A stretch of DNA of 64,000 bases from Clostridia bacterium (GTDB lineage: Bacteria; Bacillota; Clostridia; Oscillospirales; Acutalibacteraceae): NCBI GenBank assembly GCA_017537365.1, contig JAFYKZ010000002.1, positions 124,001 through 188,000 of the forward strand, written 5' to 3'. The stretch's first letter is position 1, and each line of letters opens with the position of its first letter. The position numbers and the translations under genes are program-made. Positions 7,850 to 46,474 of this stretch are shown piece by piece. A model generated the notes under the pieces. That model searched no databases. It saw only the letters and a list, made by a program, of their open reading frames with translations, and was not told the DNA's origin.

Positions 7850-7882
7850 GGGCACACTTATTCCTTACGGAAAAGTGTGCCC
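7850..7882 (-). terminator. Rho-independent terminator of the ZTP riboswitch
   Basis: On the minus strand, GGGCACACTT pairs with AAGTGTGCCC around a short loop and is followed by TTTTT. Its 5' arm uses the GGGC that forms the conserved 3' end of the aptamer, so ligand binding and termination compete: the usual design of a genetic ON switch. Confidence 0.9.
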
Positions 7883-7952
7883 AGACGGTCGGCCCAAAAG
7901 TCCCTTGCTTCCATGCGGTTTGCCCGCTAATCCGTCAGTTACAAAGAACCGT
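7876..7952 (-). promoter_or_regulatory. ZTP (pfl-motif) riboswitch aptamer
   Basis: Read on the minus strand the leader has the three conserved blocks of the pfl/ZTP class: ACUGACGG, a hairpin AGCGG...CCGC followed by UGGAAGC, and GGCCGACCGUCUGGGCA. ACGG and CCGU form the long-range stem. ZTP riboswitches sense ZTP/ZMP (AICAR phosphates), which build up when 10-formyl-THF is short, and switch on purine and folate genes. Here the target is the operon with both formyltransferases and glyA. Confidence 0.9.
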
Positions 7953-32014: not shown

Positions 32015-32270
32015 CAAAAAAATAAACTTCGCCCTGATTAACAGGACGAAGCATTAAAGTTTAATTCTCCGCGGTACCACCCGTATTTTCGCTCAAAGAG
32101 CAAACACTCTCTCGACATATAACGGTGTCCAACCGATGAAGCCTACTGATTTTTCAGCCACACTGCTCAAAAGGGAACTTCGATAAACCAGCTCTTTAAT
32201 GCGCTCGCAGCCCAAGGCGCATACTCTCTTAAAAGGCAAAATTTATTTACTTTCCTTTGTCATCGCATTT
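32015..32270 (-). promoter_or_regulatory. T-box riboswitch (Phe) with terminator, controlling pheST
   Basis: The minus strand contains ACGGGTGGTACCGCGGAGAA (32064-32083), the T-box that pairs with uncharged tRNA ends, then terminator CTTCGTCCTG/CAGGGCGAAG (32027-32051) and a T run. Upstream is a long stem I region with AGAGAG. A UUC triplet, the expected Phe specifier, lies at 32177-32175 on the 3' side of stem I. Uncharged tRNA-Phe is expected to turn the operon on. Confidence 0.92.
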
Positions 32271-32278
32271 ACTAGTAC

Positions 32279-33615: not shown

Positions 33616-33671
33616 AAATTTCTAATTTTAAAAAACTTTAAAACGCGCAAACTATTATGGGAGTGATTTTC

Positions 33672-34913
33672 ATGAAAGTTGCGCGTTTTTTTATTAAAAG
33701 CGTTTTTTATATAATGTTAGGTTTGTCGGTTACGGTTTTTGGTCTTTTGATTTATATGAGCAAAAGCTTTGAAAATGAATATAAAATTAAAATAGGTGAT
33801 ACCTTTTTGGTTGAGACCTTTATGCCTGTAACGGCAGAATATAAAGGGGTTAAGGTGTCATGTGAAAATCTTAATACAGTTGGCGAGGAATATGATGTTG
33901 ATTTAAAGCTTTTCGGCTTAATACCTGTTTCAAAGGTTAATGTTCAGGTTGTGGACGAAATGCATGTTGCGGTTTTGGGAACACCTTTTGGTATGAAAAT
34001 TTATACCGAGGGGGTTTTAGTTACCGATATGACCGATGTTAAAACCGAAAATGGCACTAAAAATCCTGCAAAACAAGCGGGCATTAAAAAGGGTGATTAT
34101 ATTGTTTCGGTAAACCGAGAAAATGTTTATACAAATGAGGATTTAAGCGATAAGGTTAGAAAATCCGAGGGCAAGAAAATGGATTTTTTAGTAGACCGAA
34201 ACGGAAGTAAAATTCATATATATTTATCGGCGGTTAAATCAGCAGACGACGGAGAATATAAAATCGGCATCTGGATTAAGGATAGCTCGGCAGGGATTGG
34301 AACTCTAACTTTTTATAGCCCTGCAACAAATGTTGTTTGCGGATTAGGACACGGTATCTGTGAGGAGGATAGCGATGAGCTTTTGCAGATAAATTCGGGT
34401 GAAATCGTTTCGGCTAAGATAACCGATGTTAAAAAGGGCAAATCGGGCGCGCCCGGTCAGTTAGAGGGAACTTTAAATTATACAAGCATAGGAACTATCG
34501 ACCTTAACAGTAATTTAGGAGTTTATTCGAAATATAAGGGTAATATAGATATCTCGAATTTGACCGAAATCGCGCTTAAACACGATGTTACAAACGGTGA
34601 CGGCGAGATTTTATGCACCGTAGACGGCGAAACACCTAAGCTTTATTCTTGCAAGATAACGGTTAGAAAACTGAACTTTTTATCTAAAACTCAAAATATG
34701 GTTATAACTATAACCGACGAAGAACTTTTAAGCAAAACAGGCGGAATAGTTCAGGGGATGTCGGGCAGTCCTATTTTGCAGAACGGAAAACTAATCGGTG
34801 CAGTAACGCATGTGCTTATCGACGAGCCAGCAAAAGGCTACGCAATATTTGCAGAGAATATGTTAGAAACCGCGCAAAGTCTGGCGGAACAAAATTTAAA
34901 AGAAGTGTCATAA
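33672..34913 (+). CDS. spoIVB: SpoIVB peptidase
   Basis: Serine protease (S55) secreted from the forespore that signals activation of sigma-K in the mother cell. 413 residues from ATG 33672 (GGGAGTGATTTTC upstream). One N-terminal membrane helix (about 5-27), a PDZ domain (about 120-190, with NPAKQAGIKKGDYIVSVN) and the S55 domain ending in GGIVQGMSGSPILQNGK with the active Ser, then IGAVTHVLIDEPAKGY. In many Firmicutes spo0A follows; here there is a repeat and an orphan gene. Confidence 0.93.
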   Translation: MKVARFFIKSVFYIMLGLSVTVFGLLIYMSKSFENEYKIKIGDTFLVETFMPVTAEYKGVKVSCENLNTVGEEYDVDLKLFGLIPVSKVNVQVVDEMHVAVLGTPFGMKIYTEGVLVTDMTDVKTENGTKNPAKQAGIKKGDYIVSVNRENVYTNEDLSDKVRKSEGKKMDFLVDRNGSKIHIYLSAVKSADDGEYKIGIWIKDSSAGIGTLTFYSPATNVVCGLGHGICEEDSDELLQINSGEIVSAKITDVKKGKSGAPGQLEGTLNYTSIGTIDLNSNLGVYSKYKGNIDISNLTEIALKHDVTNGDGEILCTVDGETPKLYSCKITVRKLNFLSKTQNMVITITDEELLSKTGGIVQGMSGSPILQNGKLIGAVTHVLIDEPAKGYAIFAENMLETAQSLAEQNLKEVS

Positions 34914-34915
34914 AT

Positions 34916-34999
34916 TGTAGGGGAGGGTCTCCGCGCCCTCCCTATAAATTTATTATGGCTTTAAAAAACGGGAGGGCACAGAGACCCTCCCCTACAACC
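34916..34999. repeat. GTAGGGG-type long palindrome
   Basis: TTGTAGGGGAGGGTCTCCGC plus GCCCTCCC (34916 on) is the reverse complement, but for two bases, of the segment ending at 34999 that finishes GACCCTCCCCTACAA. The arms are about 28 nt with about 28 nt between. No ORF. Possibly a REP/MITE-like element serving as the spoIVB terminator. Confidence 0.7.
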
Positions 35000-35036
35000 A
35001 CCTCGGTTTTTACAATTAAATTATAAATAAAATTTG

Positions 35037-35065
35037 TTGCAATTATTAACAATGTGTGCTAAACT
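35037..35065 (+). promoter_or_regulatory. Promoter of the structured RNA
   Basis: TTGCAA (35037-35042), 17 nt, TAAACT (35060-35065) with an extended TGC. The predicted start, about 35072, is the first base of the left arm of the RNA's main stem. Confidence 0.65.
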
Positions 35066-35071
35066 GATATT

Positions 35072-35300
35072 GCCAAACTAACTGAATATTATGTGAAATT
35101 GGGTGTATTTTCTTTTTATAGGGATAAATATGCTTATTTGTTTCATACTTATAGTAGTAATGAGTTTGATAAAAACGCAAATTCTGACGACTGTAAGTAT
35201 GGTGCTTTACGCCCCATTTCACACTCGGTTAGTTTGGCGACTATCGGGGTTTGCGTTTTTTGTGCGGTTACTTCGGTAGCCGCACTTTTTGATTTTTAGG
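35072..35300 (+). ncRNA. Candidate structured leader RNA with pseudoknot and terminator
   Basis: Stem A: GCCAAACTAAC (35072-35082) with GTTAGTTTGGC (35228-35238). Stem B, inside A: GTGAAAT (35093-35099) with ATTTCAC (35216-35222). Stem C: AAAAACGCAAA (35171-35181) with TTTGCGTTTTT (35250-35260), crossing A and B, so either a pseudoknot or a rival fold. Then a terminator. A 68-codon ORF over this stretch (35093-35299) has no credible ribosome site and is probably chance. I do not recognise the class. It may be a leader of the gene at 35331 or a stand-alone RNA. Confidence 0.55.
35262..35298 (+). terminator. UUCG-loop terminator 33 nt before the orphan gene
   Basis: GTGCGGTTAC, loop TTCG, GTAGCCGCAC (one G-T pair), then TTTTTGATTTTT. 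Very strong intrinsic terminator shape, so the next gene is expressed only by read-through or from an unseen start. Confidence 0.88.
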
Positions 35301-35330
35301 AAAAAACTCTAAGGTCGCCGAGGTGGTAAA

Positions 35331-36371
35331 ATGGGCATTTTCGATTTTGCAATCAACACTCAAGACGCTAAAATAGAAGATTTTAATAATGCGGTTGATT
35401 GTTTAAAATATATGGAGCAAAGAAACAAAAGGGATAATGACAGCTATTGTTTTGAAGAATATGAACAATGGATAAAGGCAGTTTATGTGTTTATTGAAAG
35501 ATGTATAGATTTTTATCCGCCTAAAAAGAATTTTGATTTTATATATAGAAACTTCAATATAAGCGAAGGAATAAAATACTATCTCCGTATTTATATTTTA
35601 TTAGAGTTTATGCGAAAAAAAGAATGTTTGTTATTTGCATATAGCTACTTTGAGAATGAAATAACAGATATGGAAAAGGAATTAACAGACTTTATTAATA
35701 GTTCGAATTTTATTCATAAATTCATAATATCATATAATCGCGTAGTTGATTTTGATATGGAGGAATACAAAGAATTTGGCAAATTGTTTAAAATGAAAGA
35801 TTTGAATTTGGATTATTTTCCCTTTGAAAGAGTATGTTTTTCTTATTCTATCGGCACAGATGCAAATGGGGAAGAAAGTTTTGAAGATATAACCTTCTAT
35901 TTGTTTAAATATATTATTTGCAAAGGAAAATTATTAAAATTCAATACAAGCGATTTTTATTCAAATGAAGAAAAAATACAAGATTATTTTAAGATTCATT
36001 CGGATTATAAAAAAGATTTCGATAAGTTAATTGAAGAAATAATGAAAAACAAGATTAAAAAAGAAGAACTTTCTGAAAAATTTTTAAAAGTTTGGAACGA
36101 AAGAAAAGAGTATGCAACGCAAATTATTAAAAATTATAATAAGCAAAGCGCTCAACTGTTTTTAAATTCAATAGATAATAATTTATTATTCAATGAAGTT
36201 GAAGAACAAAAAAATTATGATATTGAAAGAGAAAAACTGGAATTAAAGATTAATCAATGTTCATGTGAAATAGAGTTTATAAATAACGAAATTGAAGAAC
36301 TGTCAAGTATGAATGAAGTGAGAAGATTTTTATTATCTTTGCCGGATTTTGTACCGTATATGGAAGTATAA
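35331..36371 (+). CDS. Orphan AT-rich protein of unknown function
   Basis: 346 residues, not recognised. GAGGTGGT is placed well before ATG 35331. The protein is rich in Lys, Glu, Asn, Ile, Tyr and Phe, with aromatic-rich helices (YLRIYILLEFMRKKECLLF about 81-99) and a C-terminal coiled-coil-like stretch (about 285-330, EREKLELKINQCSCEIEF). No signal peptide or membrane helix, no nuclease or kinase motif seen. The coding sequence is clearly AT-richer than spoIVB or pgm, and it sits between GTAGGGG palindromes, which suggests recent gain. Its expression is probably set by the RNA upstream. Confidence 0.75.
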   Translation: MGIFDFAINTQDAKIEDFNNAVDCLKYMEQRNKRDNDSYCFEEYEQWIKAVYVFIERCIDFYPPKKNFDFIYRNFNISEGIKYYLRIYILLEFMRKKECLLFAYSYFENEITDMEKELTDFINSSNFIHKFIISYNRVVDFDMEEYKEFGKLFKMKDLNLDYFPFERVCFSYSIGTDANGEESFEDITFYLFKYIICKGKLLKFNTSDFYSNEEKIQDYFKIHSDYKKDFDKLIEEIMKNKIKKEELSEKFLKVWNERKEYATQIIKNYNKQSAQLFLNSIDNNLLFNEVEEQKNYDIEREKLELKINQCSCEIEFINNEIEELSSMNEVRRFLLSLPDFVPYMEV

Positions 36372-36393
36372 TCTGCTGGAAACAGCTCAAAGC

Positions 36394-36417
36394 GTAGGGG
36401 AGGGTTGCCCATCCCCG
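36394..36417. repeat. GTAGGGG-type half element
   Basis: GTAGGGGAGGGTTGCCCATCCCC, an imperfect hairpin sharing the first ten bases with the palindrome at 34916. Confidence 0.5.
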
Positions 36418-36450
36418 TATAATAAAGTAGAATTTAAAAATGCTTCTTAA

Positions 36451-36500
36451 AGCAAAAAAATGTAGGGGACGATGTGGGCATCGTCCCCTACATTTTGCTT
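36451..36500. repeat. GTAGGGG-type perfect palindrome
   Basis: AATGTAGGGGACGATG (36459-36474), loop TGGG, and its exact complement CATCGTCCCCTACATT (36479-36494), extended by AGCAAAA/TTTTGCT. Lies between the convergent orphan gene and pgm and could end transcription in both directions. Confidence 0.75.
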
Positions 36501-36619
36501 AATATTGGTTTGCGTTTTTTTACACAAATTGTTATAAAATAAGCACCGATTTGGTTGTAATTAAAATGGTTTAATCTGTTTGGTTTTCTATCGGGTGATT
36601 TTGGTTGTATTGTTTAATC

Positions 36620-46325: not shown

Positions 46326-46333
46326 TATTTTAT

Positions 46334-46443
46334 AATCTTCGGGGCGAGGTGTAATTCCTCACCGGTGGTAATAGCCCACGAGCCTTTTAAGGTTGATTTG
46401 GTGTAACTCCAAAGCCGACGGTATAGTCCGGATGAAAGAAGAT
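46334..46443 (+). promoter_or_regulatory. FMN riboswitch (RFN element)
   Basis: Conserved blocks in order: ATCTTCGGGGCGAGGTG, ATTCCTCACCGGTGGTAATA, GCCCACGAGCC, TTTGGTGTAACTCCAAAGCC, GACGGTATAGTCCGGATGAA and closing AGAAGAT, which pairs with the start. FMN binding is expected to end transcription at the following terminator and shut off ribU. Confidence 0.98.
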
Positions 46444-46474
46444 GCAAATATATTTTGTTTTGTTATGTTTGTAT

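Follow-up and report, generated by a model that had tools for sequence, protein, structure and literature searches.

A multicopy, pseudoknotted leader RNA of Clostridia with the predicted design of a transcription attenuator

Described leader RNAs and the element in the window

Transcription-terminating riboswitch classes with pseudoknotted aptamers are the general kind of RNA with which we compare an element in a 64,000-nucleotide stretch of the genome of a Clostridia bacterium (GTDB lineage Bacillota; Clostridia; Oscillospirales; Acutalibacteraceae; assembly GCA_017537365.1, contig JAFYKZ010000002.1, positions 124,001 to 188,000 of the forward strand). The whole stretch is called the window here and is numbered from its first letter. 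The element is a leader RNA that begins at 35072, ends in an intrinsic terminator and precedes an orphan gene at 35331–36371. With those riboswitch classes it shares the position as a 5' leader, a conserved pseudoknot fold, mutually exclusive antiterminator and terminator structures and the presence of several copies per genome; it differs from them in scoring below threshold in Rfam, in the lack of a pathway theme among its genes and in the conservation of promoter and leader as one unit. T-box leaders (RF00230) also contain an antiterminator and a terminator, but their model matches a neighbour at 32039–32272 and not this element. In the ribonucleic antiterminator (RAT) system of BglG/LicT type, the regulated structure overlaps the terminator, as it does here. 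The regulons of the cyclic di-GMP (c-di-GMP) riboswitches I and II comprise many copies per Clostridia genome that lie before surface genes, again as here. From comparison of homologues and from folding, we consider it likely that the leader is a transcription attenuator that acts in cis, is linked to its own promoter and is designed like a riboswitch, because its pseudoknot and its antiterminator share bases and exclude each other.

The nearest published idea is the SLH motif, a riboswitch candidate found before S-layer homology (SLH) and other genes; its 80 examples are spread over Synergistaceae, Clostridia and Negativicutes, and about 60% of its genes encode SLH domains (Stav et al. 2019, PMC6429828). 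It resembles our leader as an orphan riboswitch candidate that precedes surface-protein genes, partly in Clostridia, and differs in its reported range and gene partners (PMC6429828); the comparison is one of description, from the available part of that report, not of sequence. No matching motif was found in the available parts of the literature searched, including PMC8040213, PMC11109978, PMC8632094 and PMC6429828. The first of these describes 3161 candidates, most given only in supplements, and an earlier unnamed listing, for example among those candidates, is possible. We regard the leader as an unnamed, orphan class of riboswitch-like attenuators.

The initial annotation had recognised no known class, and in agreement with this no Rfam 15 family reaches its gathering threshold on the element. 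A scan of the whole window returns T-box, FMN and ZTP riboswitches and tRNA, none of them at the element. At E ≤ 10, four weak matches to the element appear, all far below their gathering scores; the best (E 0.094, 20 bits against a threshold of 45) rests on the terminator hairpin. For 20 loci, mostly of the shorter subtype B described below, the Rfam matches fall outside the elements. A permissive scan of one tandem pair of leaders gives 17 matches, all far under threshold, the lowest E (0.0078) belonging to a microRNA model, whose score of 22.5 bits compares with a threshold of 110.

Architecture and covariation of the leader

Copies were collected with a descriptor that demanded P1, strand Y (AAAAAYR...), strand Z (...RNRUUUUU) and the terminator; the antiterminator was not demanded. 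It yields 225 copies, 131 of subtype A, to which the window copy belongs, and 94 of subtype B, with at least one (L042) entered twice. No descriptor element is found in 34 of 291 loci, including the third copy in the window's own genome. The features of the window copy are as follows, each with the evidence on which it is placed.

35037–35065, + strand: promoter, with −35 TTGCAA (35037–35042), a 17-nucleotide spacer and −10 TAAACT (35060–35065); sequence and homologues.
35072–35085, + strand: 5' strand of P1, whose first base is the expected transcription start; partner 35225–35238; sequence and fold.
35085–35091, + strand: P1/P2 junction with the conserved AATA at 35085–35088 (the first A is also drawn in P1); homologue counts.
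35092–35107, + strand: 5' strand of P2; partner 35208–35223; minimum free energy (MFE) fold and swap test.
35140–35158, + strand: 5' strand of P3; partner 35187–35205; MFE fold and swap test.
35162–35184, + strand: P4 hairpin (35162–35168 with 35178–35184), whose loop and 3' strand contain strand Y; fold.
35171–35187, + strand: pseudoknot strand Y; partner 35244–35260; 17 contiguous pairs and covariation.
35225–35238, + strand: 3' strand of P1, whose last two bases overlap the antiterminator strand; sequence and fold.
35237–35249, + strand: antiterminator strand, 12 of 13 positions able to pair with 35271–35283; folding and covariation.
35244–35260, + strand: pseudoknot strand Z; partner strand Y, 35171–35187; sequence and fold.
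35262–35297, + strand: intrinsic terminator with a 10-bp stem, UUCG loop and U-rich tail; sequence, with covarying arms.
35331–36371, + strand: putative regulated gene, encoding an orphan protein of 346 amino acids; open reading frame.

The initial annotation had described a promoter, two nested stems, a third stem crossing both and a UUCG-loop terminator, and a check of the letters bears out each of these. The outer stem (35072–35082 with 35228–35238) is perfect, with P1 actually reaching 14 pairs, and the second nested stem (35093–35099 with 35216–35222) is perfect as well. The crossing stem, described as 35171–35181 with 35250–35260, is also perfect and is longer than had been claimed, with 17 contiguous pairs (35171–35187 with 35244–35260). 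The terminator pairs at 10 of 10 positions (35262–35271 with 35276–35285), and the orphan gene follows it at the place given. The leader RNA has a fold energy of z = −8.2 against 200 shuffles, none of which is as low, and 34900–36600 holds four terminator-like sites where 0.9 are expected.

The promoter has the letters described, TTGCAA-17-TAAACT with the start at P1. By itself it is not above chance, as a consensus scan gives 10 sites against 10.1 expected and the window promoter is not among them. The placement of the −10 box is kept in homologues: the match is 5 or 6 of 6 in 205 of the 222 copies with enough upstream DNA (79 after shuffling), and its first base lies exactly 12 nucleotides ahead of the first base of P1 in 135 of the 222. 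That base of P1 is preceded by T in 86% of copies and is G in 95%, the latter figure being partly built in, since the descriptor favoured P1 strands starting GC. AATA occurs within nucleotides 10–24 in 115 of 131 A copies (40 shuffled) and 76 of 94 B copies (20 shuffled). The sequence of the P4 loop is almost invariant among 64 sequences.

Covariation was assessed by swap tests, which compare the pairing of an element's own arms with that of arms exchanged between copies. For P2 and P3 they take the place of column counts, because MAFFT failed to align these variable stems; the MAFFT-based fold is limited to P1, P4 and a pair of weak local stems. With 60 of 76 non-redundant sequences, P3 gives z = −26.8 (own partner best in 45 of 60), P2 z = −18.0 and inner P1 z = −14.1. 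One control of this run is weak (z = −2.8); the other (z = −13.2) is not clean, since its segments overlap P3 and P2. The outer part of P1 in subtype B shows double-sided changes in nine of ten pairs (76 of 77 rows), a count that is biased upward because the ends of P1 were chosen by pairing. In the swap run by subtype, the terminator arms give z = −17.0 (A) and −23.0 (B) and the pseudoknot −3.3 (A) and −10.5 (B), with four controls at 0.3 and 0.4 (A) and −2.7 and −1.2 (B).

For the pseudoknot, the descriptor itself set the five A-U pairs and, in part, the three that follow; these are uninformative. The pair Y6:Z-7 is GC in 195, AU in 20, GU in 8 and unpaired in 2 of the 225 copies. In the pseudoknot columns of subtype B (76 of 77 rows), double changes occur in 5 of 10 pairs and 94.5% of cells are paired; none of 500 shuffles reaches the covariation score, and slid versions are at most 69.2% paired. 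Because sequence kinship can mislead swap tests, swaps were also restricted to copies of one genome (12 genomes, 53 B elements). None of 5000 is as low as the pseudoknot and none as low as the antiterminator described below, against 58 and 320 of 5000 for controls. The local hairpin that holds Y is supported in subtype B too (X:Y z = −7.3), and there is therefore a second choice upstream. The covariation check proposed in the initial annotation thus comes out in favour of P1, P2, P3, the pseudoknot and the terminator, by swap tests and column counts.

Alternative pairings and the attenuation model

The leader contains a further feature that the initial annotation did not describe, an antiterminator which, as judged from homologues, covaries even among copies of one genome. 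The strand that follows P1 is CUAUCGGAG in subtype A and CAAUCGGAG in many B copies, and its partner, made of the terminator loop and 3' arm, is often CUUCGGUAG in A and CUUCGGUUG in several B copies. Between A and B, a U-to-A change on one side is accompanied by an A-to-U change on the other. Other B copies alter both sides otherwise, such as CAACUUUGGAGC with GCUUUAAGUUG (L192), and some pair poorly (e.g. L184 and L189). The swap test gives z = −4.9 for A and −9.0 for B. On its own, the 3' segment folds into the antiterminator in 120 of the 131 A copies and 67 of the 94 B copies; with the strand of another copy it does so in 94–101 of 131 A and 15–29 of 94 B, and with a scrambled strand in 3–10 of 131 A and 2–8 of 94 B. 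In the window copy, the isolated segment 35237–35300 folds as the antiterminator (−20.7 kcal/mol). The MFE fold of the full RNA prefers the terminator, at −81.1 against −77.4 with the antiterminator enforced, the energy of the pseudoknot being excluded from both.

The pseudoknot and the antiterminator are mutually exclusive because they overlap at 35244–35249. In the attenuator that we propose, RNA polymerase would start at the first base of P1, and P1, P2 and P3/P4 would fold, exposing strand Y (AAAAAYGCAAAUUC). Strand Z (GGAGUUUGCGUUUUU), directly 3' of P1, would pair with Y as a pseudoknot upon emerging. The pseudoknot would occupy the antiterminator bases, the UUCG terminator would form and transcription would stop (OFF). 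Were the pseudoknot prevented or released, GCGACUAUCGGGG would pair with the terminator loop and 3' arm, no terminator would form and the gene would be ON. Strand Y would therefore have the choice between local pairing and Z, and strand Z that between Y and the 3' half of the terminator. At the level of sequence, comparison of the copies establishes the conservation of the leader and the pairing of P1, P2, P3, the pseudoknot, the terminator and the antiterminator; we infer the order of folding and the assignment of the pseudoknot to the OFF state. As in riboswitches, a conserved, covarying aptamer-like fold lies in the 5' leader and is joined, by sequence comparison and folding, to an expression platform of mutually exclusive structures. 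A small molecule or other cellular signal would pick between the states; the likeliest is a single cue shared by a regulon of many genes, largely of the cell envelope.

Several results weigh against this model. Of five measures for the pseudoknot taken by itself, some shuffles equal two: 35 of 500 attain its count of pairs with double changes and 7 of 500 its count of pair types. In 11 of the 131 A copies and 25 of the 94 B copies, the isolated 3' segment takes up the terminator fold. The contrast between own and swapped strands is strong in B and modest in A, where 94–101 of 131 still fold, because the antiterminator strands are nearly alike in A, and part of the 3' conservation of A was imposed by the exact search pattern. 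A control that pairs Z with the 5' arm of the terminator has a weak signal in B (z = −2.7; 58 of 5000). No passing start codon is found behind 24 of 225 copies, and the downstream genes have no common pathway that would name a ligand.

Since the pseudoknot and antiterminator helices are intrinsic to the RNA and near each other in computed energy, a leader that works without any signal could be imagined, with kinetics, temperature or ions deciding between them. The conserved AATA and GRUAAAAA and the elaborate P1/P2/P3 fold, kept in 21 taxonomic families, suggest more than a simple timer, and we regard such a leader as improbable. The initial annotation had proposed either a new regulatory RNA for the 35331 gene or a small RNA. 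The first part stands, as a regulatory leader, and the second is less well supported. A free small RNA of about 220 nucleotides, with the downstream genes as bystanders, would fit the leader's own promoter and strong terminator but would have no evident use for a conserved antiterminator, and start codons lie close behind the leader on the same strand. The leader is favoured because of the covarying antiterminator, these close start codons and the many unrelated downstream genes, which leaves the free small RNA very unlikely.

Distribution, downstream genes and the candidate signal

The leader is a multicopy family with two subtypes, beyond the initial view of it as the leader of one gene. By BLASTN it is present in 38 of 70 genomes of the genus, at up to nine places in one genome. 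An exact 27-base pattern occurs in at least 119 stretches of the genome collection; among the 80 matches listed, the titles name Clostridia, its families and genera, or Bacillota, with many herbivore-gut sample names, and the sole isolate is Pumilibacter intestinalis. R1, the covariance model of subtype A, was built from 64 sequences and has matches in 43 of 245 class genomes, which fall into 18 families (counted from the listing), and the shorter subtype B came to light through this search. R2, the model of subtype B (17 sequences), has matches in 94 of 391 class genomes, which fall into 21 families (counted from the listing), some of them represented by one weak match each (e.g. E 1e-6 to 1e-8 in f5, f10 and f46). 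In a phylum-wide draw of 249 genomes, at least seven of them from the window's own class, R2 matches the window's own genome and none of the 248 others. Between 8 and 13 candidates were scored per genome in the large draws, so that absences and copy numbers are to be read as lower bounds.

The window's own genome (98% complete) has three sense copies. Of the two outside the window, one precedes a protein that has dockerin and SH3 domains and whose N-terminus is hydrophobic, and the other a DUF1540 protein. Genome G085 has 11 strong copies and one weak copy. Weak antisense matches of R1 to the copies (two in the own genome), a consequence of the near-palindromic P1 and P2, are excluded from these counts, as are two matches at E 0.23 and 0.69.

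Start codons were assigned behind 201 of the 225 copies, at a median of 28 nucleotides past the terminator and within 30 nucleotides in 109 of the 201; the choice favoured nearby starts, within about 170 nucleotides. Export signals (a heuristic for signal peptide, N-terminal membrane segment or lipobox) are found in 100 of 201 downstream proteins against 129 of 642 other open reading frames at the same loci, where the background frames have about 100 amino acids or more and the downstream set 45 or more. Domain scans covered proteins of at least 80 amino acids, cut to 450 (98 of 103 listed for A and 45 of 51 for B). The 98 subtype A proteins contain BspA-type LRR_5 (12), AMP-binding (10), zinc ribbons (5) and Cu_amine_oxidN1 (3), and the 45 subtype B proteins LRR_5 (15), Cu_amine_oxidN1 (8) and SLH (2) by Pfam; the remaining proteins belong to scattered families or to none.

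These gene partners bear on the SLH motif, which likewise stands before cell-surface and unassigned genes, partly in Clostridia, in the available part of its description (PMC6429828). Against identity with it, SLH domains are present in 2 of 45 subtype B proteins compared with about 60% for the motif (PMC6429828), and SLH is not among the 25 listed families (of 60) for the 98 subtype A proteins. R2 is also without a match in the 248 other genomes of the phylum draw, though the Negativicutes content of that draw is not shown. That our leader is the SLH motif, or a branch of it, seems to us far-fetched.

The product of the 35331 gene has two weak Pfam matches under the cut-offs and no match in NCBIfam or PADLOC. 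The initial annotation had named homologues of this gene without the leader as evidence to the contrary; the only homologue found in the 70 genus genomes (G022, 73% identity) lies behind the same leader. An anti-phage defence theme was rejected for the set scanned, subtype A, in which nine PADLOC families each occur once among the 98 proteins. In several genomes, at L023, L025, L036, L066, L092, L108, L129 and L147, the leader is followed by a recurring protein that resembles acyl-CoA ligases and contains LTGYPSID(K/R)P close to its N-terminal end.

A trans-acting RNA-binding protein, in place of a directly bound ligand, could also switch the leader. A dedicated regulator would suit a regulon without a metabolic theme, and the strongly conserved bases outside the long helices (AATA and GRUAAAAA) could be its site. 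The two known kinds examined do not fit. CAT_RBD, the domain of the BglG/LicT type, is found in none of 16 carrier genomes, with 4 of 14 control genomes positive, and that type of antitermination was rejected. ANTAR is absent from 8 of the 16 carriers, including the window's own genome, with none of 14 control genomes positive; an ANTAR target was rejected as well. RAT and ANTAR target RNAs are, moreover, far simpler than this structure. We hold a protein switch to be possible but on balance unlikely.

A surface-protein regulon is what would be expected of c-di-GMP control. GGDEF is present in 12 of the 16 carrier genomes and absent in four, with no match in the window's own genome, 98% complete and with three copies of the leader, or in G343, G322 and G271, which are multicopy carriers too. 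The c-di-GMP-I and -II regulons thus differ from this one, which has no Rfam match and has carriers without GGDEF. c-di-GMP is unlikely as the signal because the own genome is without a GGDEF match; for that genome a c-di-GMP riboswitch is ruled out, and a further c-di-GMP riboswitch class is hardly credible.

To return to the attenuator of riboswitch design, we put forward as a tentative but plausible extension that the leader is a new riboswitch class with two subtypes, which would sense a signalling compound and set a cell-envelope regulon across about 21 families of Clostridia, as a promoter-sensor-terminator unit able to stand in series. A leader this common yet outside Rfam 15 would point to an unrecognised signal for setting the surface proteins of Clostridia, and it would join in one regulon many genes that otherwise lack annotation, a pure orphan among them. 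With the consensus, the two alternative helices and the list of genes, the question of the ligand can be put to a direct test.

By the descriptor, units stand in series on the same strand at eight loci (L252, L104, L189, L214, L229, L270, L273 and L280); a few hundred bases hold three units in L104 and two in the others. In L189, L214, L229, L252 and L273 both members also match R2, and L104 has two exact pattern matches. In L252 (600–1080), the sole tandem read closely, every unit is equipped with promoter-like boxes of its own. Spread on phages or plasmids was rejected, with no exact pattern match of either subtype in viral contigs and no plasmid match. One partial match is in an unverified 'Bacteriophage sp.' record from faeces (L299, MT835503.1, 310–1723), where a leader of the family precedes an EcoRI-type adenine methyltransferase; this methylase family has one match among the 98 subtype A proteins.

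In the window, the leader unit lies directly behind a SpoIVB-type gene (33657–34913, Pfam S55). L086 and L143 have a very similar SpoIVB-type coding end upstream of the leader and a different gene after it, which suggests that the position beside SpoIVB is a site of unit exchange. GTAGGGG...CCCCTAC palindromes at 34917–34995 and 36394–36496 flank the promoter, leader and gene as if they were the borders of a cassette. The palindrome is mildly commoner near leaders, occurring within 400 nucleotides upstream in 15 of 218 copies against 3 of 142 control stretches. Ordinary known leaders elsewhere in the window are the ZTP riboswitch at 7872–7952, the T-box at 32039–32272 and the FMN riboswitch at 46331–46447. 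A Skipping-rope RNA (RF02924; L190, 2143–2242, and L195, 734–823) lies about 570 nucleotides upstream of two closely similar B leaders.
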